Source of the DNA: Massilia sp. CF038
GTDB taxonomy: Bacteria > Pseudomonadota > Gammaproteobacteria > Burkholderiales > Burkholderiaceae_D
Assembly (NCBI RefSeq): GCF_900129765.1
Contig: NZ_FQWU01000002.1
Coordinates: forward strand, 1,674,001-1,738,000
Reading direction: 5' to 3'
Length of the DNA: 64,000 nt
Shown here: one piece after another, positions 28,749 to 38,349 of the stretch
Position numbering within the stretch: the first letter of the stretch is position 1
Layout of the letters: each line of letters begins with the position of its first letter
Translations under genes and position numbers: made by a program
Notes under the pieces: generated by a model
Told to the model about the DNA's origin: nothing
The model's input: the letters and a program-made list of their open reading frames with translations, nothing else
Databases searched by the model: none

Positions 28749-29563
28749 TGCCCCTCCACCTGGCGCAGCACCTGCACCACCGCCGCGTGAATGCCCGGGG
28801 CGCTGGCGGCGAAACTATCGCTGGCGGTGGTCCATGGCGCGCCCTGCCAGTCCGTCACCACCCCGCCTCCCTCGCGTACCAGCAGCGCGCCCGCAACCAG
28901 GCCGGATAACACACTGCCAGGCTGCCAGAAGCAGTCGAGCCGTCCCGCTGCAACGTGAATGAGCTGCATGGCGGACGGCACGGCGGCCTTCACCAGCAAG
29001 GCGTGATTGAGCATGGCGATGATCGATTTGCCGGTGCGGGCGTGAGTCGCTGCGCCTTCGCCCGGGGTAGCTTGGGCGGTACTGACCATCGCGGCGCCCA
29101 GGTCCAGCTTCGCTGATGTCCTGATTTCGCGCCCGTTCAAGAATGCGCCACCGCCGCGCAGCGCAGTGTAGACGCGCGCGGTCAGCGGCTCATCCACCAC
29201 CGTCAACACGGCTTCGTTGTCGCGCACCAGGGTGGCGGTCACGCTCCAGTCACCCATGCCATGGATGTGATTGACGTTCCCTTCGACGGGATCGACCACC
29301 CACCATTCACCGGGTGGCAACGGGCCGCTGGCCTTTTCGTCCTCCAGCCAGCGCGCTTGCGGACGGATTGCCAGCAACTGCGGGCGTAAATTCGCGGAGG
29401 CTGCGTCGTCGTTCGCGTCGATCATAGCCATTAATTCGGTCATATCGGCTGGACGGTCATCAGGGTTAAAACGCGCCAGCAGGATCTGGCCAGTCTGATG
29501 TACGGCCTGCGCGGTCTGCGCAAGCAGCGCAGCGTCGTCGGATTGCGCCTGGAAGGTTTGCAT
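28745..29563 (-). CDS. Inositol monophosphatase family protein (variant motif)
   Basis: The protein of about 272 residues belongs to the lithium-sensitive phosphatase superfamily. WLEDEKASG corresponds to the metal-binding Glu motif, WWVVDPVEGNVNHIHG to the usual DPIDGT motif, and the GALLVREGGGVVTDWQG block to the C-terminal motif. The second Asp of DPIDGT is Glu and the Thr is Asn, and the final metal Asp region is atypical (WQPGSVLSGLVAGA). Activity may therefore be altered or redirected. I favour the MQTFQ start; a start 12 codons upstream (29599) is also open. It is co-transcribed with the downstream oxidoreductase. Confidence 0.82.
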   Translation of the reverse strand: MQTFQAQSDDAALLAQTAQAVHQTGQILLARFNPDDRPADMTELMAMIDANDDAASANLRPQLLAIRPQARWLEDEKASGPLPPGEWWVVDPVEGNVNHIHGMGDWSVTATLVRDNEAVLTVVDEPLTARVYTALRGGGAFLNGREIRTSAKLDLGAAMVSTAQATPGEGAATHARTGKSIIAMLNHALLVKAAVPSAMQLIHVAAGRLDCFWQPGSVLSGLVAGALLVREGGGVVTDWQGAPWTTASDSFAASAPGIHAAVVQVLRQVEGQ

Positions 29564-29603
29564 TTGGGTGGCTTTGCGTTCTGGTTGAGATGTGATCATA
29601 ATA

Positions 29604-29617
29604 TGAGGAATTACTCA
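29604..29617. promoter_or_regulatory. Candidate TetR operator
   Basis: TGAGGAATTACTCA is a 14-bp near-perfect palindrome with one mismatched pair, in the short divergent region between the inositol-monophosphatase-like gene and the TetR gene. Its position suits repression of both promoters. Support is by location and symmetry only. Confidence 0.35.
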
Positions 29618-29635
29618 CTTTCCAAACTCGCATTC

Positions 29636-30256
29636 ATGGCCACCGCAATCCGCAAGTCCGTCACCACCCTCGCCCCCCGTAAACTGCCGCGCCAGGCCCG
29701 TTCCGCCGCGACTGTGCAAGCGATTCTGGAAGCGGCTGCTCACATTCTGGAGACCGAAGGCATGGCCGCGTGTACCACCAACGCCGTCGCCCTGAAGGCG
29801 GGTGTCAGCATTGGCTCCCTGTATCAGTACTTCCCATCGCGCGACGCAATCACCAGGGCACTGATCCTGGAAAAGACCGCTGGATTACTGACTGAGGTTG
29901 AGGCGATCGACATCAGCAACGGTGGCAAGGCCGCGCTGATGGCGCTGATCGACATCGGTATCAAGCAACAGCTGACCCGCCCCACTCTGGCGCGCATTCT
30001 CGATGTTGAGGAACAGCGCCTGCCCATCGAGGAAGATATGCGCCTTCAAATGGGCCGCCTGCAGAACTTCATGCGGACCTTGCTGGCGCAGGACGATATG
30101 CCTGCGTGCGCACGACAGCCGGAGGTTGGCGCCGACATTGTGGCGATCATCCGGGGAATGGTTGACGGTGCAGGCGGAAGGGGCGAACGAGATGTTAAGG
30201 CGCTACGCAAGCGGGTGCAGCGTGCTGTTTTTGGTTATCTGTCTCTGCCGGTTTAA
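29636..30256 (+). CDS. TetR/AcrR-family transcriptional regulator
   Basis: The roughly 206-residue protein has a TetR HTH at about residues 17-65 (ILEAAAHILETEGMAACTTN, AGVSIGSLYQYFPSRDAITRA) and an all-helical ligand domain ending GYLSLPV. I place the start at MATAIRKS; an ATG at 29603 (MRNYSLS) would add 11 residues and cover the candidate operator. It is divergent from the phosphatase-oxidoreductase pair, its likely target. The ligand is unknown. Confidence 0.88.
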   Translation: MATAIRKSVTTLAPRKLPRQARSAATVQAILEAAAHILETEGMAACTTNAVALKAGVSIGSLYQYFPSRDAITRALILEKTAGLLTEVEAIDISNGGKAALMALIDIGIKQQLTRPTLARILDVEEQRLPIEEDMRLQMGRLQNFMRTLLAQDDMPACARQPEVGADIVAIIRGMVDGAGGRGERDVKALRKRVQRAVFGYLSLPV

Positions 30257-30300: not shown

Positions 30301-30735
30301 TCAGCGGCGGGCGGCGCGTTTGAGCCAGCGCATCAGGGCCCCCAGCACGGGAAGCTTTTCGTAAAGCTCTTCGGCTGCATCCCAATAATCCCGATGCAGC
30401 GTCACCGCACCGTCGGCACCAAACACCAGGTGTGTCGCCCCCTTGATGCACTGCGGCGTGCGCGAAAAACGCTTCATGGTGAACAGGAAGTCCCAGGTCA
30501 GGAACGCCTGCTGTCCCTGCAAAACGGTGCCCGTGACTACAAAGCGCGGCTGCTCGACCTGCTCGAACATATGCGCAAAAATCGCGCTGATCGCCTCGTG
30601 GCCATTCACGTCATTGAACGGGTCCTTGAAGCGCGCTTGCGGCGCATACACAGTGGGCAGTTCAACTCGCACCGATTCGGGGCTGATGTTTTCAAAGAAG
30701 TGAACCAGTCGCTTCAAGGCCAGGTCGGGTGTCAT
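30301..30735 (-). CDS. NTF2-like (SnoaL-type) protein, last gene of the lipid operon
   Basis: The 144-residue protein has the NTF2-like cone-fold pattern VYAPQARFKDPFNDVNGHEAI near the start, then a middle strand with FVVTGTVLQGQQAFLTWDF. In related proteobacterial clusters a SnoaL-like gene accompanies the SDR, FAD, DUF1365 and Cfa genes. Its start overlaps the SDR stop as ATGA. The reaction is not known; it may bind or isomerise a lipid intermediate. Confidence 0.82.
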   Translation of the reverse strand: MTPDLALKRLVHFFENISPESVRVELPTVYAPQARFKDPFNDVNGHEAISAIFAHMFEQVEQPRFVVTGTVLQGQQAFLTWDFLFTMKRFSRTPQCIKGATHLVFGADGAVTLHRDYWDAAEELYEKLPVLGALMRWLKRAARR

Positions 30736-31499
30736 AAGCCGGTCACCTTGTGGATCATCCAGAAGTACAAACGATAGGGCAGCAGCCGCGCAAAGCGCAG
30801 ACCGTTGGTGAAGCGCTTCGGGAAGTGGATATGGAACTGGCCCTTCTCGATACCGGTCACCATCTCCAGTGCTGCGTCCTCCGGTTTCATCAGCGCCGGC
30901 ATCTTGAAGTCGTTTCCTGCAGTGAGCGGCGTCTCCACGAAGCCAGGATTGATCTGGTACACGCCAATGCCTTTTGGATGCAGGTCCAGATACAACGACT
31001 CGGTCAGGTTGATCAACGCCGCCTTGGTCGGCCCGTACACCAGCGCCTTGGGCAAGCCGCCGTAGCCAGCTACCGATGATACGATGCCGATCCCGCCCGC
31101 ACCCTGGCGCAGCAGCACCGGCAGCACCACGTCAAGGCAGTTGAAGACGCCGCGCAAATTCAGATCGATCATGCTGTTGGCAGCGGCCAGATCAAAGGAA
31201 TCAGCACGCATTTCGTTGTAGCCGCCAGCGACCACCAGTACCAGGTCAATGCCGCCCCACTCGGCAACGATCTTCTCCCCGGCGGCGCCAACGCTGTCGC
31301 GGTCCGTCACATCCAACGGTGCAACCAGCGCGCGTGGAGTGCCGCTGGTGGTCGCGAGCAGCTTGTCAATGCTGCGCGCCGAAAACGCGACCCGCGCTCC
31401 CAGATCCACCAGCAAATGGGCACAGGCCTGGCCAATGCCGGTTGAGGCACCGATCACCCAGACCCGTTTGCCGGCCCAGTCACTAATTCGCGGGTTCAT
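30732..31499 (-). CDS. Short-chain dehydrogenase/reductase
   Basis: This classical SDR of 255 residues has the cofactor loop GASTGIGQA (about residues 17-25), the catalytic Ser in GIVSSVAGYGG and the YGPTKAAL motif carrying the Tyr and Lys, followed by NPGFVETPLT. It shares ATGA overlaps with both the DUF3833 gene upstream and the NTF2-like gene downstream, so it is a fixed part of the lipid operon. The substrate is probably a hydroxy or keto lipid, but this is inference. Confidence 0.9.
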   Translation of the reverse strand: MNPRISDWAGKRVWVIGASTGIGQACAHLLVDLGARVAFSARSIDKLLATTSGTPRALVAPLDVTDRDSVGAAGEKIVAEWGGIDLVLVVAGGYNEMRADSFDLAAANSMIDLNLRGVFNCLDVVLPVLLRQGAGGIGIVSSVAGYGGLPKALVYGPTKAALINLTESLYLDLHPKGIGVYQINPGFVETPLTAGNDFKMPALMKPEDAALEMVTGIEKGQFHIHFPKRFTNGLRFARLLPYRLYFWMIHKVTGL

Positions 31500-32035
31500 T
31501 GGGCGGCGCGCTTGGTGAACGACAGCGTCACGCTGCCCAGGTTGACGCCGAATTTACTCATTGCGGTCCGGTTCAGCATGACCTTGTCATCGATCAGGAA
31601 CATCCAGTCATCCATGTTGACGTTGACGATCTTGCCGTCCACGGGCAGCGCCAGCACATACTGCCAGCGCAGTGAATTGCCCGACACCGTGCCCTGGGCA
31701 GTACCCACCACATCGTCGGCGGTGGCGGTAAAGCGTCCTGGCGCGGTTTTCTTGAGCGTCCACACGCGCTTTTGCTTGGTGCCGTCGGCGTAGACGAAAT
31801 CTTCGTCGAGCGTACCGGTATCGCCTTGCCAGGTGCAGCGCATCACCACCACGAAGCGCTTGACCACTGCGCCCGAACGGCCCTGAAACATGCCGTGGGC
31901 GTCCAGCGTTCCGTTGAAATACTGCTCCACTTCCAGGCGCGGCATCTGGTTCGCGTACTGCTCCGGTTGGGGCGAGGTGCAAGCGGTCAGCAGCGCCACG
32001 GCGGCGCCGGCAACGGCGATCTTTAGTCGATTCAT
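31496..32035 (-). CDS. DUF3833 lipoprotein
   Basis: The 179-residue protein has a lipoprotein signal ending LLTACTS (lipobox Cys at residue 19) and the DUF3833 pattern (VEQYFNGTLDAHGMFQGRSG, WKLKKTAPG-like and VNMDDWMFLIDDKVMLNRT). The family is uncharacterised but recurs beside Cfa, DUF1365 and FAD oxidoreductase genes. It is probably an envelope lipid-handling or carrier protein (inference). Confidence 0.87.
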   Translation of the reverse strand: MNRLKIAVAGAAVALLTACTSPQPEQYANQMPRLEVEQYFNGTLDAHGMFQGRSGAVVKRFVVVMRCTWQGDTGTLDEDFVYADGTKQKRVWTLKKTAPGRFTATADDVVGTAQGTVSGNSLRWQYVLALPVDGKIVNVNMDDWMFLIDDKVMLNRTAMSKFGVNLGSVTLSFTKRAAQ

Positions 32036-32049
32036 GATGCTTCCTTTAA

Positions 32050-33285
32050 TTAGAGCTTACGCAATGGGGCGCGCCACAGCATGGCCGCCGCCGTTAGTTT
32101 GAGTGCGCATGGCAGCAGCGCATACGCTGCGACCAATGCGCTCGTGCCAGCGCCCGTACCCGGTACATAGCCGAGCCATTCAAGCAGCGGCAGGGAAATC
32201 CCCGCCGCCAGCGCCAGCGTCATTTGCACACCCCAGTTCCAGACGCCGAAATAAGCCGCTTCGCGCGAGCCCGAGTGGCCCGCTTTGGCGATCACGCCAG
32301 CCAGCAGCGCGGGCGGCAGCGCCAGGTCGGCGCCAACCGCAAAGCCGGACAACACGCAGATGGCGCCAAATGCCACCGCAGCGCCCGGGGCCAGCCCAAA
32401 GGCCCAGATGAACACCGCGCACGAGAGCAGCATGCCGCCCACCCATGCGCGCGCCTCGCCATAGCGTACCGCCAGTGCCACCCAGGCTGGAATGGAGACT
32501 GCGGCGGCGCCGAAATACAAAATCAGAAACAGGCCGGACATCGCAGCCAGACGCAAATGGTCGGCTGCGAAAAACAAGAACAGTGTGGCAGGAATGGCGG
32601 ACGCGACGCCATTGACCATCAACACACCGAACAGCGAGCGAAATCGTGCTTCGTGAAACGGCACCGCCATTTGGCGAAAGACAGGCGATGGCGGCGCAGT
32701 ATCTGAGGTTGCGGCCCGCGGCGACCAGGCCAGGAGCACCGCTGCGCCAATCAGCACCGCAACGCAAAATGCGATCGTCAATGCGCCATACCCGGCCGCG
32801 CCGGTTACGCCTGCCGCGAGCACCACGCCAGCCAGTCCGCACGCCTCGCGCACCCCACTCACGCGCGAGCGTTCGGCCGGCGCCTGCGTCAGCGCCGCAC
32901 CCCAGCTTTGGTGGGCGATAGTGGCAATGCCAAAGCCAAGGTAAACCAGCATTAAGGTCCCCAGAAACCAGACCAGCGAAGCCAGCGTGCCCAGTGCCGG
33001 CGGATGAAACAAGGCCACAAAGCCCGCCAGCAGCAGAGGCAGACCAATGGATACAAAACGCGGATAAGCGCCCTGCCCGCGCCCGATCCACCAGCCCAGC
33101 AAAGGATCGATAAAGGCGGCCGCAATGCGCGCCGTCAGCAGCACAGCGCCGATGGCGGCCAGCGACAGGCCCGCGCGCGCGGCGTAGAACTGCGGCAGAT
33201 ACACGTAAATCGGCAGTGCGACCATCGCCAGCGGCAAGCCAAAGCCGCCATAGGCGAGCAGCATCGGCAAGCTGAATCGTTTCAT
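32050..33285 (-). CDS. MFS transporter (GPH/MFS_2-like)
   Basis: The 411-residue protein has about 12 hydrophobic segments. The loop-2 region AAFIDPLLGWWIGRGQG resembles the glycoside-pentoside-hexuronide branch of the major facilitator superfamily. Its start overlaps the chalcone-isomerase-like gene as ATGA, tying it to the lipid operon. It may move a lipid or precursor across the inner membrane; sequence alone does not give the substrate. Confidence 0.85.
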   Translation of the reverse strand: MKRFSLPMLLAYGGFGLPLAMVALPIYVYLPQFYAARAGLSLAAIGAVLLTARIAAAFIDPLLGWWIGRGQGAYPRFVSIGLPLLLAGFVALFHPPALGTLASLVWFLGTLMLVYLGFGIATIAHQSWGAALTQAPAERSRVSGVREACGLAGVVLAAGVTGAAGYGALTIAFCVAVLIGAAVLLAWSPRAATSDTAPPSPVFRQMAVPFHEARFRSLFGVLMVNGVASAIPATLFLFFAADHLRLAAMSGLFLILYFGAAAVSIPAWVALAVRYGEARAWVGGMLLSCAVFIWAFGLAPGAAVAFGAICVLSGFAVGADLALPPALLAGVIAKAGHSGSREAAYFGVWNWGVQMTLALAAGISLPLLEWLGYVPGTGAGTSALVAAYALLPCALKLTAAAMLWRAPLRKL

Positions 33286-33809
33286 CGTGGCGCCGCGTCT
33301 TTCAACAGCGCGCTGCGCAAGCCCTTGGCGCTCGTTTTCGGGTCGAGCCAGATGGCAAAGAATGCACGCGCAAATTCCGGGTCGGGCACGGTCGCCAGCG
33401 GCTTTCCATCGAGGTAGAAGCGGGCACCAGCGCCAGGCAAAAAGACGCCGCTGATATGTGTACCCTCTTTCACATCGGGGAAGATCTCCTTCATGCGCGC
33501 CAGCCAGGCGGCACGCTGTGCGCTGGTGCCGGCGCCGAGTTTTTCCATTTCATCCGCGCTGGCCTGGGCGATCTTGACCCCGTCCAGTTTGCGCGCGTAG
33601 GTCAGGTCCAGCACGAACGGGGCATCGGCCTGGTAGCCTTTGTCGCCGACCCACAGCTCGGCGTCGTAAATGCGCAGGCCGAACCAGGTAAAGGCGCCTT
33701 TGCCAGCCACGCGGGCTTGCTTGACGTGTTCGTCAATATGGACGGGCGCGGCTGCAGCTGCGCCCAGCGCGACGAACATGAGGACGACAGCGATGAGGTA
33801 CTTTTTCAT
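33282..33809 (-). CDS. Chalcone-isomerase-like exported protein
   Basis: The 175-residue protein has a signal peptide (residues 1-20, ending GAAAA) and the chalcone-isomerase-like core: GKGAFTWFGLRIYDAELWVG, PFVLDLTYARKLDGVKIA, and LDGKPLATVPDPEFARAFFAIWL at the end. In bacteria this fold often binds fatty acids rather than flavonoids. It starts 4 nt after the cfa-like gene, so a periplasmic lipid-binding role is reasonable but inferred. Confidence 0.86.
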   Translation of the reverse strand: MKKYLIAVVLMFVALGAAAAAPVHIDEHVKQARVAGKGAFTWFGLRIYDAELWVGDKGYQADAPFVLDLTYARKLDGVKIAQASADEMEKLGAGTSAQRAAWLARMKEIFPDVKEGTHISGVFLPGAGARFYLDGKPLATVPDPEFARAFFAIWLDPKTSAKGLRSALLKDAAPR

Positions 33810-33813
33810 GCGC

Positions 33814-35046
33814 TTAAGCTTTGGTCAGCGTGAAGTGCATGACGTCGGTATTGCGCTCACGGAAGGCCGCCTCGCAATAGCAAAGGTAGAACTCCCAGGT
33901 GCGGATGAAGCGCTCGTCAAAGCCTTGCGCACGCACTTCGGCCAGGCGCGCGTGGAAGGCGTGCCGCCAGGCTGCCAGAGTGTCGGCGTAGTCGATGCCA
34001 AAGCGGTAGGTGGCGCTCACGGTCAGGCCATGCTCCTGCGCCATGCGCTCGAACGCCGACGGCGATGGCAGCATCCCGCCAGGGAAGATGTACTGCTGAA
34101 TAAAGTCGGTGCCCTTGCGATAGCGCTCGAACAGTTCATCGGCAATCACGATGGTCTGGATGCAGGCACGTCCGCCCTGCTTCAGATTGCGCGCCAGGCA
34201 CTCGAAATAGCTTGGCCAGTAGCTCTCGCCCACGGCTTCAAACATCTCGATCGAGGCAATCGCATCGTACTGGCCGCTGCTGTCGCGGTAGTCGCACAGC
34301 TGCAGGTCGGCCTGGGCCGACAGACCGGCGTTTTGCAGCCGCTCGCGGGCATAGGCCAACTGCTCGGTCGACAATGTGAGTCCGGTCACGTGCACGCCGG
34401 CGTCACGCGCGGCCTGCTCGGCAAATCCACCCCAGCCGCAGCCAATTTCCAGCACCCGGTCGCCAGGCGACACTTGCAGCTGCTCGATGATGGTGCGGTA
34501 CTTGGCGGCCTGCGCCAGTTGCAGATTGTCGCCCGTGGCCTTGGTGTACAGCGCGCTCGAATAGGTCATTGAAGGATCGAGCCACAGCTTGTAAAAATCG
34601 TTGCCGATGTCGTAGTGCGCATGAATGTTCTTGCGGCTGCCTGCTTTCGAATTGCGGTTCATCAGATGCTTGACGCGGTAGACCAGACTGCCCCACCAGC
34701 TGCCGTACACCAGTTCTTCGATCGGTGCGCGGTTACGCGCCAGCAGAGCGATCAAGCCGGTCAGGTTATCGGTCTTCCAGCTGCCGTCGATGAAGGTTTC
34801 GGCAAAACCGATGTCGCCTGAGCGCATTGCGGCGCCAAACACGTCCCAGCTTTGCAGCTCCAGCGTGACCGGGGTGCTGCCGTCGCCGAACATGAGGACG
34901 GCGCCGTCGGGCGTGATGAGGCGCAGCGCGCCGTGCTGCAGCTTGGCCAGCAGTTTGAGAATGATTTTTGCCGAGGCAGGTGCTTTGCGCGCGGCGCCGC
35001 TGGCGGCAGCAATCGAGGTAAGGGACGTCAGGGATTCAGAGCTCAT
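33814..35046 (-). CDS. Cyclopropane-fatty-acyl-phospholipid synthase family methyltransferase
   Basis: The 410-residue protein transfers a methyl or methylene group from S-adenosylmethionine to unsaturated acyl chains in membrane phospholipids, going by family. The SAM-binding motif VLEIGCGWGGFAEQA lies in the middle. It is preceded by HYDIGNDFYKLWLDPSMTYS and followed by the C-terminal YLCYCEAAFRERN motif. The start at 35046 (MSSESLTSL) overlaps the DUF1365 stop as ATGA. Given the neighbours it may be the UfaM-like branch that makes methylated or furan-type fatty acids rather than plain cyclopropanes; this is unproven. Confidence 0.92.
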   Translation of the reverse strand: MSSESLTSLTSIAAASGAARKAPASAKIILKLLAKLQHGALRLITPDGAVLMFGDGSTPVTLELQSWDVFGAAMRSGDIGFAETFIDGSWKTDNLTGLIALLARNRAPIEELVYGSWWGSLVYRVKHLMNRNSKAGSRKNIHAHYDIGNDFYKLWLDPSMTYSSALYTKATGDNLQLAQAAKYRTIIEQLQVSPGDRVLEIGCGWGGFAEQAARDAGVHVTGLTLSTEQLAYARERLQNAGLSAQADLQLCDYRDSSGQYDAIASIEMFEAVGESYWPSYFECLARNLKQGGRACIQTIVIADELFERYRKGTDFIQQYIFPGGMLPSPSAFERMAQEHGLTVSATYRFGIDYADTLAAWRHAFHARLAEVRAQGFDERFIRTWEFYLCYCEAAFRERNTDVMHFTLTKA

Positions 35047-35819
35047 CGTGTTACCTCTTGTTGGGGTGGGACCGGTTTCGAGAAAAAAGGAACGCGCCGC
35101 ACCCACAGGCGCAGCGCCTGCAAGTGAATGCGCAGGACGACGTTGAACGTCATCAGCGGGTAGAAAAAGAAGGCGCGCGCGGCGCTGGCACTGCTAATTG
35201 GCGTGGCTTGCCCGGAGACGCTGGTCTGGATCAGGGCGCCGTCGGCATCGTCGTAATCGATGCGGGCAACGGTCTGCTCGGCCGCGCGCATCGCACGGCT
35301 GAAGCGGAAACGGTAGCCGCCCTGCACCTGGCAGAAAGGCGACACATGGAAAACTTTGCGGGCCCGCAGTTCGGCACCGTTGCCGATCACGGTGCCTGTA
35401 TCAAGCAAGTAGAAGTGCCGCTCGCCGAAGGTGTTGCGCACGTCGCAGACAATGGCGCGCAGTGCGCCGTCGGCGCGGTGGCAGAACCAGAACGAGACGG
35501 GGTTGAACACAAAGCCCAGCACGCGCGGCATGGCTTGCAGCCACAACTCGCCATCGGCGTCTTCCACGCCTTCGCGCTTGAGCAGGGCGTCGATCCACGC
35601 AGTCAGCGGCTGCTTGCCGTCGCCATGGTCGGCGTCGACAAACGAGAGCAAGTTGAAGCGGTTACGCGAGAACAGCGCGCAGCCAAATCCGGCCTCGCCC
35701 ATGCTGCGCAGCGGCAGGCGCAGGTAGTAGCCGGAATAGGCGAACGCATTGCGCACCGGCCGCAGGCGCGTGTGGCGCACCTGGCCAAAGCACAGCTGTG
35801 GCGTGTCAGGCTGCCGCAT
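35043..35819 (-). CDS. DUF1365 family protein
   Basis: The 258-residue protein matches DUF1365, with GQVRHTRLRPVRNAFAYSGYYLRLPL at the start, PRVLGFVFNPVSFWFCHR in the centre and the HVSPFCQVQGGYRF motif. The family almost always sits between an FAD oxidoreductase and a Cfa-like methyltransferase and is thought to act on lipids with them. Its first 14 nt overlap the FAD gene and its end overlaps the cfa-like gene. Confidence 0.92.
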   Translation of the reverse strand: MRQPDTPQLCFGQVRHTRLRPVRNAFAYSGYYLRLPLRSMGEAGFGCALFSRNRFNLLSFVDADHGDGKQPLTAWIDALLKREGVEDADGELWLQAMPRVLGFVFNPVSFWFCHRADGALRAIVCDVRNTFGERHFYLLDTGTVIGNGAELRARKVFHVSPFCQVQGGYRFRFSRAMRAAEQTVARIDYDDADGALIQTSVSGQATPISSASAARAFFFYPLMTFNVVLRIHLQALRLWVRRVPFFSKPVPPQQEVTR

Positions 35820-37104
35820 TGCCCTGTGCCTCCATCACGCGTTTCAGGGCGGCCGCCACCGACAGGCCTGACTTCAGACCATCCTCGTGGAAGCCGTAAC
35901 CGGTCCAGGCACCGGCGAACCAGGTGTTCTGGCTGCCCTGGAAGGTGGCCAGACGCGCCTGAGCGGCGACTGCACCTTCGTCAAACACCGGGTGGGCGTA
36001 GTCGAAACTGGCCAGCACGTGCTTGGGATCAGGTTCGTCAATCGGATTGAGCGAGACGATGACCGGGGTCTTGCAAGGCAGCGGCTGCAGCATGTTCAGC
36101 AGGTAGTGCACGCACACTTGCGGCGTGGGTGCCGCATTGCTCTGGTAGTTCCAGGCCGACCAGGCCGCGCGCTTTTTCGGCAGGCAGCTGGCATCGGTAT
36201 GCAGCACTGCGCGGTTGGGCTGATAGCGTACCGCTTCCAGAACTGAACGTTCATCGGCGCGCGGATCGCGCAGCAGCGCCAGCGACTGGTCGCTATGGCA
36301 GGCCAGCACCACATGGTCGTAATAGTCGGCGCCGCGCGCTGTGGCCACGCGGACCGAGCGCGCGCCGCCGCCTTCCATGCGGGTGACCGCGGTCACGGCC
36401 GTGCCCAGCTTTTTGCCCGGGATGGCGGCCAGCAGCCGGTTGACGTAATTACGCGAGCCGCCGCGCACGGTGCGCCATTGGGGCCGGTCGCTCACTTGCA
36501 GCAGACCGTGGTTATGGCAGAAGCGGATGAAGGTCGCTACCGGGAAGGCCAGCATCTGGTCGGACGGGCAGGACCAGATACAGGCGGCCATCGGCAACAG
36601 GTACCAGGCGCGGAACTGGGGGCTGTAATCTTCGCGCTCGAGGAATTCGCCCAGCGAGATCGACGGCATCACCCCGCCCACGGCCAGGTCGGTCGCCTGT
36701 TTGTTAAAGCGCAGAATGTCGCGCACCATGCGCAGAAAGCGCGGGCGCAGCAGGTTGCTGCGCTGGGCAAACACGGTGTTGAGGTTGCTGCCGGCCCATT
36801 CCAGCCAGCGCGCACCGGGCTGCTCACTCAGCGGCAGCTTGACCGAGAACGACATGTCGCTCGGGGCTGTGTCCACCCCCAGCTCGGCAAACAGGGCAAT
36901 CAGATTGGGGTAGGTGCGGTCGTTGAACACCAGGAACCCGGTATCGACGCCGAAAGTGGTGCCGTCCAGGGTGACGTCGACGGTATTACTGTGGCCGCCG
37001 AAATAATCGCCAGCCTCGTACAGACTCACCTCCGCCCCGCCCTGGACAAGACGATACGCACACGACAGACCGGAGATGCCGGCACCTATGACCGCTATTT
37101 TCAT
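35806..37104 (-). CDS. FAD-dependent oxidoreductase (amine-oxidase/desaturase-like), first gene of the lipid operon
   Basis: The 432-residue protein starts MKIAVIGAGISGLSCAYRL, an FAD Rossmann loop (GAGISG at 7-12), followed by YEAGDYFGGHSNTV. It ends with WFAGAWTGYGFHEDGLKSG, where the isoalloxazine contact region is expected. This subfamily is linked to Cfa and DUF1365 genes and to acyl-chain desaturation or oxidation. It heads an eight-gene minus-strand operon and is divergent from a B12-type MerR regulator, with a strong promoter and palindromic operators between them. Confidence 0.92.
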   Translation of the reverse strand: MKIAVIGAGISGLSCAYRLVQGGAEVSLYEAGDYFGGHSNTVDVTLDGTTFGVDTGFLVFNDRTYPNLIALFAELGVDTAPSDMSFSVKLPLSEQPGARWLEWAGSNLNTVFAQRSNLLRPRFLRMVRDILRFNKQATDLAVGGVMPSISLGEFLEREDYSPQFRAWYLLPMAACIWSCPSDQMLAFPVATFIRFCHNHGLLQVSDRPQWRTVRGGSRNYVNRLLAAIPGKKLGTAVTAVTRMEGGGARSVRVATARGADYYDHVVLACHSDQSLALLRDPRADERSVLEAVRYQPNRAVLHTDASCLPKKRAAWSAWNYQSNAAPTPQVCVHYLLNMLQPLPCKTPVIVSLNPIDEPDPKHVLASFDYAHPVFDEGAVAAQARLATFQGSQNTWFAGAWTGYGFHEDGLKSGLSVAAALKRVMEAQGNAAA

Positions 37105-37125
37105 CGTTTCACCACATTTCTTAGT

Positions 37126-37202
37126 TTTGTCTAGGACAAATGCTTTACAAGTTGCATAATCCGAGAAATAATTTGTTTTGTCAACGATTTGTCCATGACA
37201 AA
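37126..37202. promoter_or_regulatory. Light-regulator operators and lipid-operon promoter
   Basis: Two perfect palindromes TTTGTC-N3-GACAAA lie at 37126-37140 (N3 = TAG) and 37188-37202 (N3 = CAT), with a lone TTTGTC half-site at 37177-37182. On the minus strand TTGACA (37179-37184) and GATTAT (37156-37161), 17 nt apart, form a strong sigma-70 promoter for the lipid operon. One palindrome is just upstream of the -35, the half-site overlaps the -35, and the other palindrome is about 10-25 nt downstream of the predicted start. This layout suits repression by the divergent MerR protein. The plus-strand promoter of the regulator is not clear. Confidence 0.75.
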
Positions 37203-37353
37203 CAAAAGCTGTTGGTATTTATACGAAGCAATGAAGCAGGTGGATTCAAAACAGAAGAATTTATTGCTGCGCGGGAATATGACGGCCCATGGCATCATTT
37301 CGCCTATGGGATCTGGCTGCGACGAACCTGACACATCAAGTAGTAGGAAAACC

Positions 37354-38349
37354 ATGAGCAACGATTACAATGCCCCAATTGTCCTGAACAAAAGAATTGA
37401 TTCAACCATGCTTACCGAACACACCGACGCCGCACTGAGCAGCATCAGCGACGTCGAACGCGATACCGGCGTGCCAAAAGAGACCTTGCGCGTGTGGGAG
37501 CGCCGCTACGCCTTCCCCCAGCCCGAGCGCGACCAGAATGGCGAACGTCAATATCCGGCCGCCCAGGTACAGCGCCTGCGCCTGGTCAAGCGTCTGCTGG
37601 ACCACGGCTACCGCCCGGGCAAGATCATGCATCTGGACACCGAGGCACTGAGCAACCTGGCTTCCAAGACGGGCAGCGATCCGCACGCGCCCAGCGCCGA
37701 CGACCCCGAGCTGCGCCATTGCCTCACCCTGATCAAAAATCACAAGATCAGCGAACTGCGCCAGCGCATGGCACAGGCATTGCTGCAGATGGGTTTGCAG
37801 CGTTTTGTGACCGAGCTGGTCGCCCCGCTGACCACGCTGGTGGGCGATACCTGGGCCTCTGGCGACCTGGCTGTTTTTGAGGAACACTTGTTTGCAGAAA
37901 TGCTGCAAAGCCTGATGCGCAACGCCATTTTTTCTGCCAACCAGCAGATCGGCCAGGCTGCAGCAGCCCCGCGCATTTTGCTGACCACGGTCCCGCAGGA
38001 GCGCCATGGACTGGGCTTGCTCATGGCCGAAGCCTTGTTTGCGCTGGAAGGCGCGCACTGTGTTTCGTTGGGTGTACAGACGCCGCTCAACGATATTGTC
38101 GATGCGGCGCGGGTGCAAAAGGCCGATATCGTCGCCCTGTCATTTTCCAGCGTCATGTCGCCCCGTGCGGCCGTCGACAATGTGACTGAATTGCAGTCGC
38201 GTCTGGGTGAGGCGACGCAGGTCTGGGCCGGCGGCAGCTGCGCCGCCCTGGCGCGCCGCCACCTGGGTCCGCAGCGGGTGCTGGACTTGAACGATATTGC
38301 AGGGGCGGTCGCGCGCTGGCGTGCCGAGCATGCGGCAGCGGCCAGTTAG
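37354..38349 (+). CDS. MerR-family regulator with cobalamin-binding photoreceptor domain (CarH/LitR type)
   Basis: The 331-residue protein has an N-terminal MerR helix-turn-helix (about residues 29-78; DVERDTGVPKETLRVWERRY) and a CarH-like helical plus B12-binding C-terminal part. The light-sensor signature is intact: W-x9-EH (Trp167, Glu177, His178) and the base-off cobalamin motif E-x-H-x2-G (ERHGLG, His218). SFS and WAGG follow at about 263-265 and 291-294. In CarH, adenosylcobalamin bound this way assembles a DNA-binding tetramer that light breaks apart. I chose the ATG at 37354 because AGGA lies about 6 nt upstream. A longer frame from 37189 begins inside an operator. It is divergent from the lipid operon, its likely target. 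Confidence 0.9.
   Translation: MSNDYNAPIVLNKRIDSTMLTEHTDAALSSISDVERDTGVPKETLRVWERRYAFPQPERDQNGERQYPAAQVQRLRLVKRLLDHGYRPGKIMHLDTEALSNLASKTGSDPHAPSADDPELRHCLTLIKNHKISELRQRMAQALLQMGLQRFVTELVAPLTTLVGDTWASGDLAVFEEHLFAEMLQSLMRNAIFSANQQIGQAAAAPRILLTTVPQERHGLGLLMAEALFALEGAHCVSLGVQTPLNDIVDAARVQKADIVALSFSSVMSPRAAVDNVTELQSRLGEATQVWAGGSCAALARRHLGPQRVLDLNDIAGAVARWRAEHAAAAS

Follow-up and report, generated by a model that had tools for sequence, protein, structure and literature searches.

The locus considered here lies in a 64-kb stretch of the genome of Massilia sp. CF038 (the window, in whose positions coordinates are given unless otherwise marked), where a gene for a MerR-type regulator, litR, on the plus strand diverges from an eight-gene operon on the minus strand headed by ufaD-, ufaO- and ufaM-like genes, the presumptive genes of a furan fatty acid pathway. 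All nine genes were found where a first-pass annotation, made from the sequence alone, had placed them, and their Pfam families agreed with it (Table 1). That annotation had described operon joints of at most 14 nt; this held for the junctions of 4 or 14 nt (overlap or gap) but not for the CMAS gene, whose listed GTG start, itself uncertain, overlaps the DUF1365 gene by 64 nt. The litR open reading frame had been listed from a TTG at 37189. Its start was taken at the ATG at 37354 (331 aa), which has AGGA upstream and with which the earlier residue numbers W167, E177, H178 and H218 agree. We consider it likely that LitR is an adenosylcobalamin (AdoCbl)-binding, LitR/CarH-like repressor that holds the divergent furan fatty acid operon shut in the dark and is released by light.

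Table 1. Genes and predicted control elements of the litR–ufaD locus, in positions of the 64-kb window.
Feature	Position	Strand	Basis or remark
litR, 331 aa, MerR-type helix-turn-helix with four-helix and Rossmann B12-binding domains	37354..38349	+	Pfam MerR_1, B12-binding_2, B12-binding
ufaD-like flavin adenine dinucleotide (FAD) oxidoreductase (putative fatty acyl desaturase), operon gene 1	35806..37104	-	Pfam Amino_oxidase; role by analogy with RSP1091 UfaD (PMC7380195)
ufaO-like DUF1365 protein (putative O2-dependent furan-ring step)	35043..35819	-	Pfam DUF1365, E 5e-79; UfaO is reported to carry DUF1365 (PMC7380195)
ufaM-like S-adenosylmethionine (SAM)-dependent fatty acyl methylase, start uncertain	33814..35106	-	Pfam CMAS, E 5e-87
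chalcone-isomerase-like protein	33282..33809	-	Pfam Chalcone_3
MFS_2 transporter	32050..33285	-	Pfam MFS_2
DUF3833 protein	31496..32035	-	Pfam DUF3833, E 9e-70
short-chain dehydrogenase	30732..31499	-	Pfam adh_short
SnoaL-like/NTF2-like protein, final operon gene	30301..30735	-	Pfam SnoaL_2
predicted operator proximal to ufaD, TTTGTCTAGGACAAA	37126..37140	.	conserved in relatives; no other site in the host genome fits the 15-bp pattern exactly
predicted operator distal to ufaD, TTTGTCCATGACAAA	37188..37202	.	62 bp from the proximal operator
predicted ufaD promoter, TTGACA-17-GATTAT, flanked by the two operators	37156..37184	-	promoter scan
predicted litR promoter, TTTACA-17-AATAAT, back to back with that of ufaD and overlapping it	37144..37172	+	promoter scan

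LitR matched Thermus CarH (3whp/5c8d) over both of its parts, with E-values of 3e-26 as a single sequence and 1e-41 as a profile, and showed the domain layout of CarH/LitR class I, with a MerR-type helix-turn-helix domain and four-helix and Rossmann B12-binding domains. Membership of class II, which has only the four-helix half, was rejected since the B12-binding domain PF02310 is also present. The definition of CarH given in a review (PMC8156234) consists of the motifs Wx9EH and ExHx2Gx41SxV/Tx22-27GG and leaves the axial histidine outside. In LitR these motifs read W167-x9-E177-H178 and E216-x-H218-x2-G221-x41-S263-x-S265-x27-G293-G294. Both Wx9EH and ExHx2G were present in all 30 ufa-linked LitRs of the host's family, and the adenosyl-capping Trp, Glu and His were invariant across 21 aligned LitR sequences. 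The host genome also has genes for a corrinoid adenosyltransferase and for a second, divergent MerR protein of approximately 339 aa without Wx9EH (C2:1467142, L085).

The 249-bp gap between litR and ufaD contains two exact copies of a palindromic core, TTGTCNNNGACAA, which read TTGTCTAGGACAA at 37127 and TTGTCCATGACAA at 37189; judged by the rate of the other 10 copies in the host genome, such a pair has P ~1e-7. Column counts over the host-family loci gave T-TTGTC-C-W-G-GACAA-A. A promoter scan of the gap yielded four promoter-like matches, compared to 0.8 in shuffled sequences. Among 123 LitR loci (those differing in their first 300 nt), pairs of sites 62–64 bp apart were present in 54, of which 26 had ufa genes and 28 did not. 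A TTGACA-like hexamer (at least five of six positions), pointing away from litR and 3–6 nt from the distal palindrome, accompanied the pair in 25 of 27 paired ufa loci; in seven of the 27, other genes intervene and the hexamer may serve those. The litR promoter beside the proximal site was not conserved, being found in two of the 27 ufa-linked and none of the 28 other paired loci. An additional TTGTC at 37178–37182, 11 bp from the distal palindrome, was considered as a tandem repeat of the CarH kind and set aside, because an extra TTGTC at this distance occurred in only eight of the 123 loci and is therefore not general.

Conservation of the pairing was followed in two sets of loci. For the first, a search for the regulator covered 145 genomes of the host's family, and 51 of its 54 strongest matches were taken with their surroundings; the other three were the window's own copy and two fragments from a single genome. 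UfaD was upstream of and divergent from LitR in 30 of these 51 regions, less than 600 bp away in 26 and about 2 kb away in four. The second set, which shares genomes with the first, came from a scan of named genomes with the 21-sequence alignment, in which 591 loci were confirmed and 80 of those listed were kept; all figures for named loci refer to those 80. They include Massilia, Duganella, Rugamonas, Pseudoduganella, Janthinobacterium, Noviherbaspirillum and Limnobacter, as well as metagenome-assembled genomes labelled Herminiimonas, Limnohabitans, Rhodoferax, Polaromonas, Polynucleobacter and Gallionellales. UfaD diverged from LitR in 44 of them (within 600 bp in 24), and UfaD, UfaO and UfaM were all present in 41. 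The neighbours of LitR comprised FolE2-like and glutathione-peroxidase-like genes together with ufaD in 11 loci, glutathione peroxidase and ufaD in seven, FolE2 and ufaD in one, and ufaD alone in 25; the labels FolE2, peroxidase, fasciclin and DUF378 used here are readings of translated sequence, fasciclin being annotated in Eleftheria. Since the light-induced genes reported for Pseudomonas putida include folE and ufaM (PMC9758184), these neighbours fit a photo-oxidative role. The same eight genes and LitR, with the exact core TTGTCCTAGACAA, recur on plasmid pAZKH of Azoarcus sp. KH32C (L302). Because this plasmid is typed as mobilizable, the module may be able to pass from one order to another.

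In a tree of UfaD with 97 rows, 21 of 22 LitR-linked rows fell in one group of 27 that included no ChrR-linked row (support of 98 in the Shimodaira–Hasegawa-like approximate likelihood ratio test, SH-aLRT). Seventeen of the 22 (the window and 16 others) had been picked for LitR adjacency and five came from the unbiased sample, four of them inside the clade; the tree therefore documents common descent of LitR-linked ufaD rather than the frequency of LitR adjacency. The tie between a LitR with B12 motifs and this operon, as first proposed from the window alone, was thus upheld by conserved divergence, conserved sites and a UfaD tree that fits one LitR clade. Separately, many of the loci without UfaD from Duganella, Rugamonas, Pseudoduganella and Massilia (L222–L248) had no ufa genes within 10 kb and kept LitR with the site pair. 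At four further ufa-less loci (L055, L057, L303, L304), all of which have exact cores, the genes beside LitR were fasciclin-like, DUF378-like or for chemotaxis receptors.

Between LitR and UfaD the core was present at no more than one mismatch in 30 of 30 host-family loci and exact in 28; where UfaD directly adjoins LitR it was exact in 25 of 26. Counting sites that were exact within 2.6 kb of LitR or had one mismatch within 450 bp of it, all 44 named loci with UfaD had one (34 exact), as had 35 of the 36 without UfaD (14 exact). A phylum-wide sample covered 299 Pseudomonadota genomes with 92 strong DUF1365 matches, of which 80 neighbourhoods were fetched, the window being among the rest. In the fetched loci the exact core occurred within 600 bp upstream of ufaD in none of 34 ChrR-linked loci (ChrR within about 10 kb), none of 11 with a B12-less MerR protein and none of 30 others (including L143, whose ChrR is 11.7 kb away), and in one of five with a B12-type LitR. 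The divergent B12-type LitRs of this sample (L141, L146, L149) had a site near LitR in three of three, exact in two. By such comparison, the predicted link from LitR through these sites to the ufa genes is well supported.

A wide LitR regulon in the host genome was rejected: the 15-mer at no more than one mismatch gave three copies and its reversed control also three, though the exact 13-mer gave 12 vs. 5 for the reversed control. Two of the three 15-mer copies lie in the litR–ufaD gap. Ten relatives together had 27 copies vs. 4 in the control, and the exact 15-bp pattern, which was fitted on such loci, had seven copies in 11 genomes, all at LitR–ufaD. The third 15-bp site of the host, outside the window at C6:1918445 (L079:9946–9958), is approximately 22 bp before a pyridoxamine-oxidase-like (PNPOx-like) gene (PF16242), and one copy in the relatives precedes an orthologue of this gene (G070). 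At no more than one mismatch, a site closely preceded two (L211, L213) of 11 close orthologues and three (L216, L217, L218) of five distant paralogues, which is no more than suggestive. A gene whose translation, read by eye, resembles an outer-membrane lipid A deacylase is preceded at approximately 21 bp by an exact 13-bp core that fails the 15-bp pattern (C7:144511, L080:5012).

Profile searches detected no ChrR in the host genome, with Caulobacter detected as positive control, and none over the cut-off in 145 host-family genomes, 40 of which had weak matches below it. The absence of ChrR reported in the first-pass annotation therefore stands, and ChrR-type control of the operon was rejected. 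That annotation also held that the ECF sigma/ChrR pair usually controls related gene sets elsewhere; ChrR lay within 15 kb of 44 of the 92 DUF1365 loci in the phylum sample, a measure of nearness and not proven control. In the same survey, which the annotation had suggested, a B12-type LitR was near six loci (the window included) and both regulators near none. A MerR protein without Wx9EH was near DUF1365 in 11 of the 80 fetched loci; two Burkholderiales loci (L152, L162) appeared to have a TetR-like gene before ufaD, a label read from translated DNA, and the remaining loci had no ChrR, LitR, MerR or TetR nearby. The PplR box T(G/A)TACA-N12-TGTA(C/T)A was found within 600 bp upstream of ufaD in none of the 80 loci, the 11 with B12-less MerR included. 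In the window, 44 nt separate the end of the operon from that of a TetR-type regulator gene on the plus strand (29498–30256).

The interpretation we favour builds on the gene content, linkage, conserved sites, promoter geometry and absence of ChrR described above; B12 binding, the direction of control, the response to light, the lipid and its benefit are inferred. The chief target of LitR would be the divergent furan fatty acid operon, with litR itself as a probable further target. In the dark, AdoCbl-bound LitR would occupy the two palindromes, which are separated by about six turns of the helix, one immediately before the -35 element of ufaD and the other immediately past the start point, so that RNA polymerase would be shut out of the bracketed promoter. 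Light would break the Co–C bond, loosen the oligomer and free the operators, and UfaM, UfaD and UfaO could then turn cis-vaccenyl chains of phospholipids into methylated furan fatty acids, which would scavenge singlet oxygen.

A number of observations weigh against this interpretation. LitR has Ser265 where the published CarH motif has V/T, and it scored 120 bits against the NCBIfam CarH equivalog NF052513 with its cut-off of 400, for which reason we use the name LitR/CarH-like rather than CarH. Its sites are inverted repeats, whereas those of Thermus and Bacillus CarH are described as tandem 11-bp repeats. In the host genome the count of 15-mers equals that of the control and only their placement is striking. 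Two loci with LitR near ufa genes in other arrangements (L130, L169) had no site by LitR, L169 having a one-mismatch site by ufaD, and several Burkholderiales hold ufa genes without an adjoining LitR. UfaD was more than 600 bp from LitR in four of 30 host-family and 20 of 44 named loci, and in many of these FolE2 or glutathione peroxidase genes intervene while the sites remain beside LitR, which may therefore act on the nearer genes there; our confidence was lowered slightly on account of these intervening genes. The site pair is also kept in the 28 loci without ufa genes, which suggests autoregulation as well.

The axial histidine raises the most serious alternative. The light-state ligand had been overlooked in the first-pass annotation, by which every signature residue was kept; that is true of Wx9EH and ExHx2G, but His132 of Thermus CarH, next to the motif Trp, aligns with Ala168 of LitR, a further point against the favoured interpretation. 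The motif was located in 49 host-family and 79 named LitRs, and in none of these was its Trp followed by His, a residue that Thermus brockianus does have. His132 is reported to be the upper cobalt ligand in the light, and most of the H132A protein stayed tetrameric after illumination (PMC10442372); an earlier report cited in that paper differs, describing disassembly of H132A CarH. LitR might accordingly be a cobalamin-status or redox sensor, in which AdoCbl reports B12 supply and light releases the DNA poorly. We regard this as unlikely. The invariant capping Trp, Glu and His fit a capped, photolabile AdoCbl, the published definition of CarH rests on its two motifs and not on the axial His (PMC8156234), and the ufa, FolE2-like, glutathione-peroxidase-like and fasciclin genes found by LitR resemble a photo-oxidative regulon. 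The clade either frees DNA through a variant mechanism or is a poorer light switch, and given the invariance of the capping residues the variant mechanism appears more likely.

Alternatively, the palindromes could serve only litR autoregulation or the nearest genes, with ufa under another regulator and the adjacency due to descent. Sites do remain by LitR where other genes intervene before ufaD, and among the 28 ufa-less loci that keep the pair a TTGACA-like hexamer was in the same place in 16. Against this, the hexamer was kept in 18 of 20 paired loci with UfaD directly divergent, and six Janthinobacterium-type loci (L043–L045, L048–L050) have one exact site approximately 20 bp before UfaD, which makes restriction to autoregulation improbable.

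The operon product was assigned by analogy with R. sphaeroides, where the furan fatty acid 9M5-FuFA is reported to be formed jointly by UfaM (a SAM methylase), UfaD (an NAD/FAD-domain protein resembling phytoene desaturases) and UfaO (DUF1365), RSP1087–1089 of the same operon being dispensable for it (PMC7380195). Enzymes of the three types are contiguous at 33814–37104 at the level of Pfam families. Another modified lipid, such as a cyclopropane or methyl-branched chain, is a comparably improbable product: the furan assignment draws on family and gene order, but a UfaD-like gene was near DUF1365 in 80 of 80 fetched phylum-sample loci and a UfaM-like gene in most, and the Cfa-like (UfaM-like) protein reached 278 of the 400 bits of the NCBIfam Cfa equivalog cut-off. 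The product should be a furan fatty acid, which refines the change in membrane acyl chains envisaged earlier. At one locus (L230) the chalcone-like, MFS, DUF3833 and SnoaL genes are kept in the absence of any nearby match to UfaD, UfaO or UfaM, a hint that these four have a separate function.

A role of LitR as an activator of ufa with light as inducer, as its MerR-type helix-turn-helix might suggest, is very improbable: MerR activators sit in promoter spacers of 19–20 bp, whereas the 17-bp spacer predicted for ufaD is of normal length and the sites lie outside the promoter. CarH proteins, moreover, are described as repressors (PMC8156234), and a site pair that brackets the promoter divergent from litR fits repression rather than long-spacer activation.

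If the repressor interpretation is correct, B12 photoreceptors extend from carotenoid genes to membrane lipids. In Rhodobacter, oxidation of membrane furan fatty acids is proposed to act as a second message, leading to ChrR breakdown under singlet oxygen (PMC6852236); in a family lacking ChrR, furan lipids must then have a job other than triggering that breakdown. A bacterial family that keeps the pathway without ChrR, under an apparent direct light switch, would thus make the signalling and scavenging roles separable. The locus also offers a defined predicted operator and, for photochemical work, a group of CarH-like proteins that naturally lack His132. The composite picture, a B12 photoreceptor in a ChrR-less family with furan lipids as its main conserved output, two promoter-bracketing palindromes, no axial His and a photochemical switch unlike that of Thermus, is put forward tentatively, as possible rather than probable.

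Among the papers listed by literature searches, judged by title and abstract opening, none was recognisable as an account of ufa genes paired with a B12-type LitR, and the nearest systems each share part of the arrangement. In Vibrio cholerae, a MerR protein of the light-response kind (VCA0056) and ChrR are described, and a Cfa-like gene is raised by blue light (PMC5241685); there ChrR and the MerR protein both act, unlike in the ChrR-less strain CF038, and Vibrio class IV LitRs are said to lack the B12 domain (PMC9758184). The RpoE(ECF11)–ChrR system of R. sphaeroides controls the same kinds of enzymes, UfaD, UfaO and UfaM, and answers singlet oxygen through an anti-sigma factor that is absent from CF038 (PMC7380195, PMC6852236). 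The CarH proteins of Thermus thermophilus, Bacillus megaterium and Myxococcus xanthus have the domain layout, Wx9EH and ExHx2G in common with LitR, as well as an operator at a sigma70-type promoter; they are described as controlling carotenoid genes, unlike the LitR found by ufa (PMC8156234, PMC10442372), and Thermus CarH has His132 where Massilia LitR has Ala (PMC10442372). PplR and PmlR of P. putida and P. mendocina are class II LitR-family MerR repressors that act with a short light-oxygen-voltage (LOV) protein on light-induced genes including ufaM, with an FAD oxidoreductase and a short-chain dehydrogenase nearby (PMC9758184). Their box is T(G/A)TACA-N12-TGTA(C/T)A, whereas the Massilia site is TTTGTCYWRGACAAA and its LitR has both B12 domains. 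Light control of ufaM by a B12-less LitR and a LOV protein, which the first-pass annotation had also missed, is thus already published for Pseudomonas (PMC9758184), and the Massilia locus presents known parts in a new combination.

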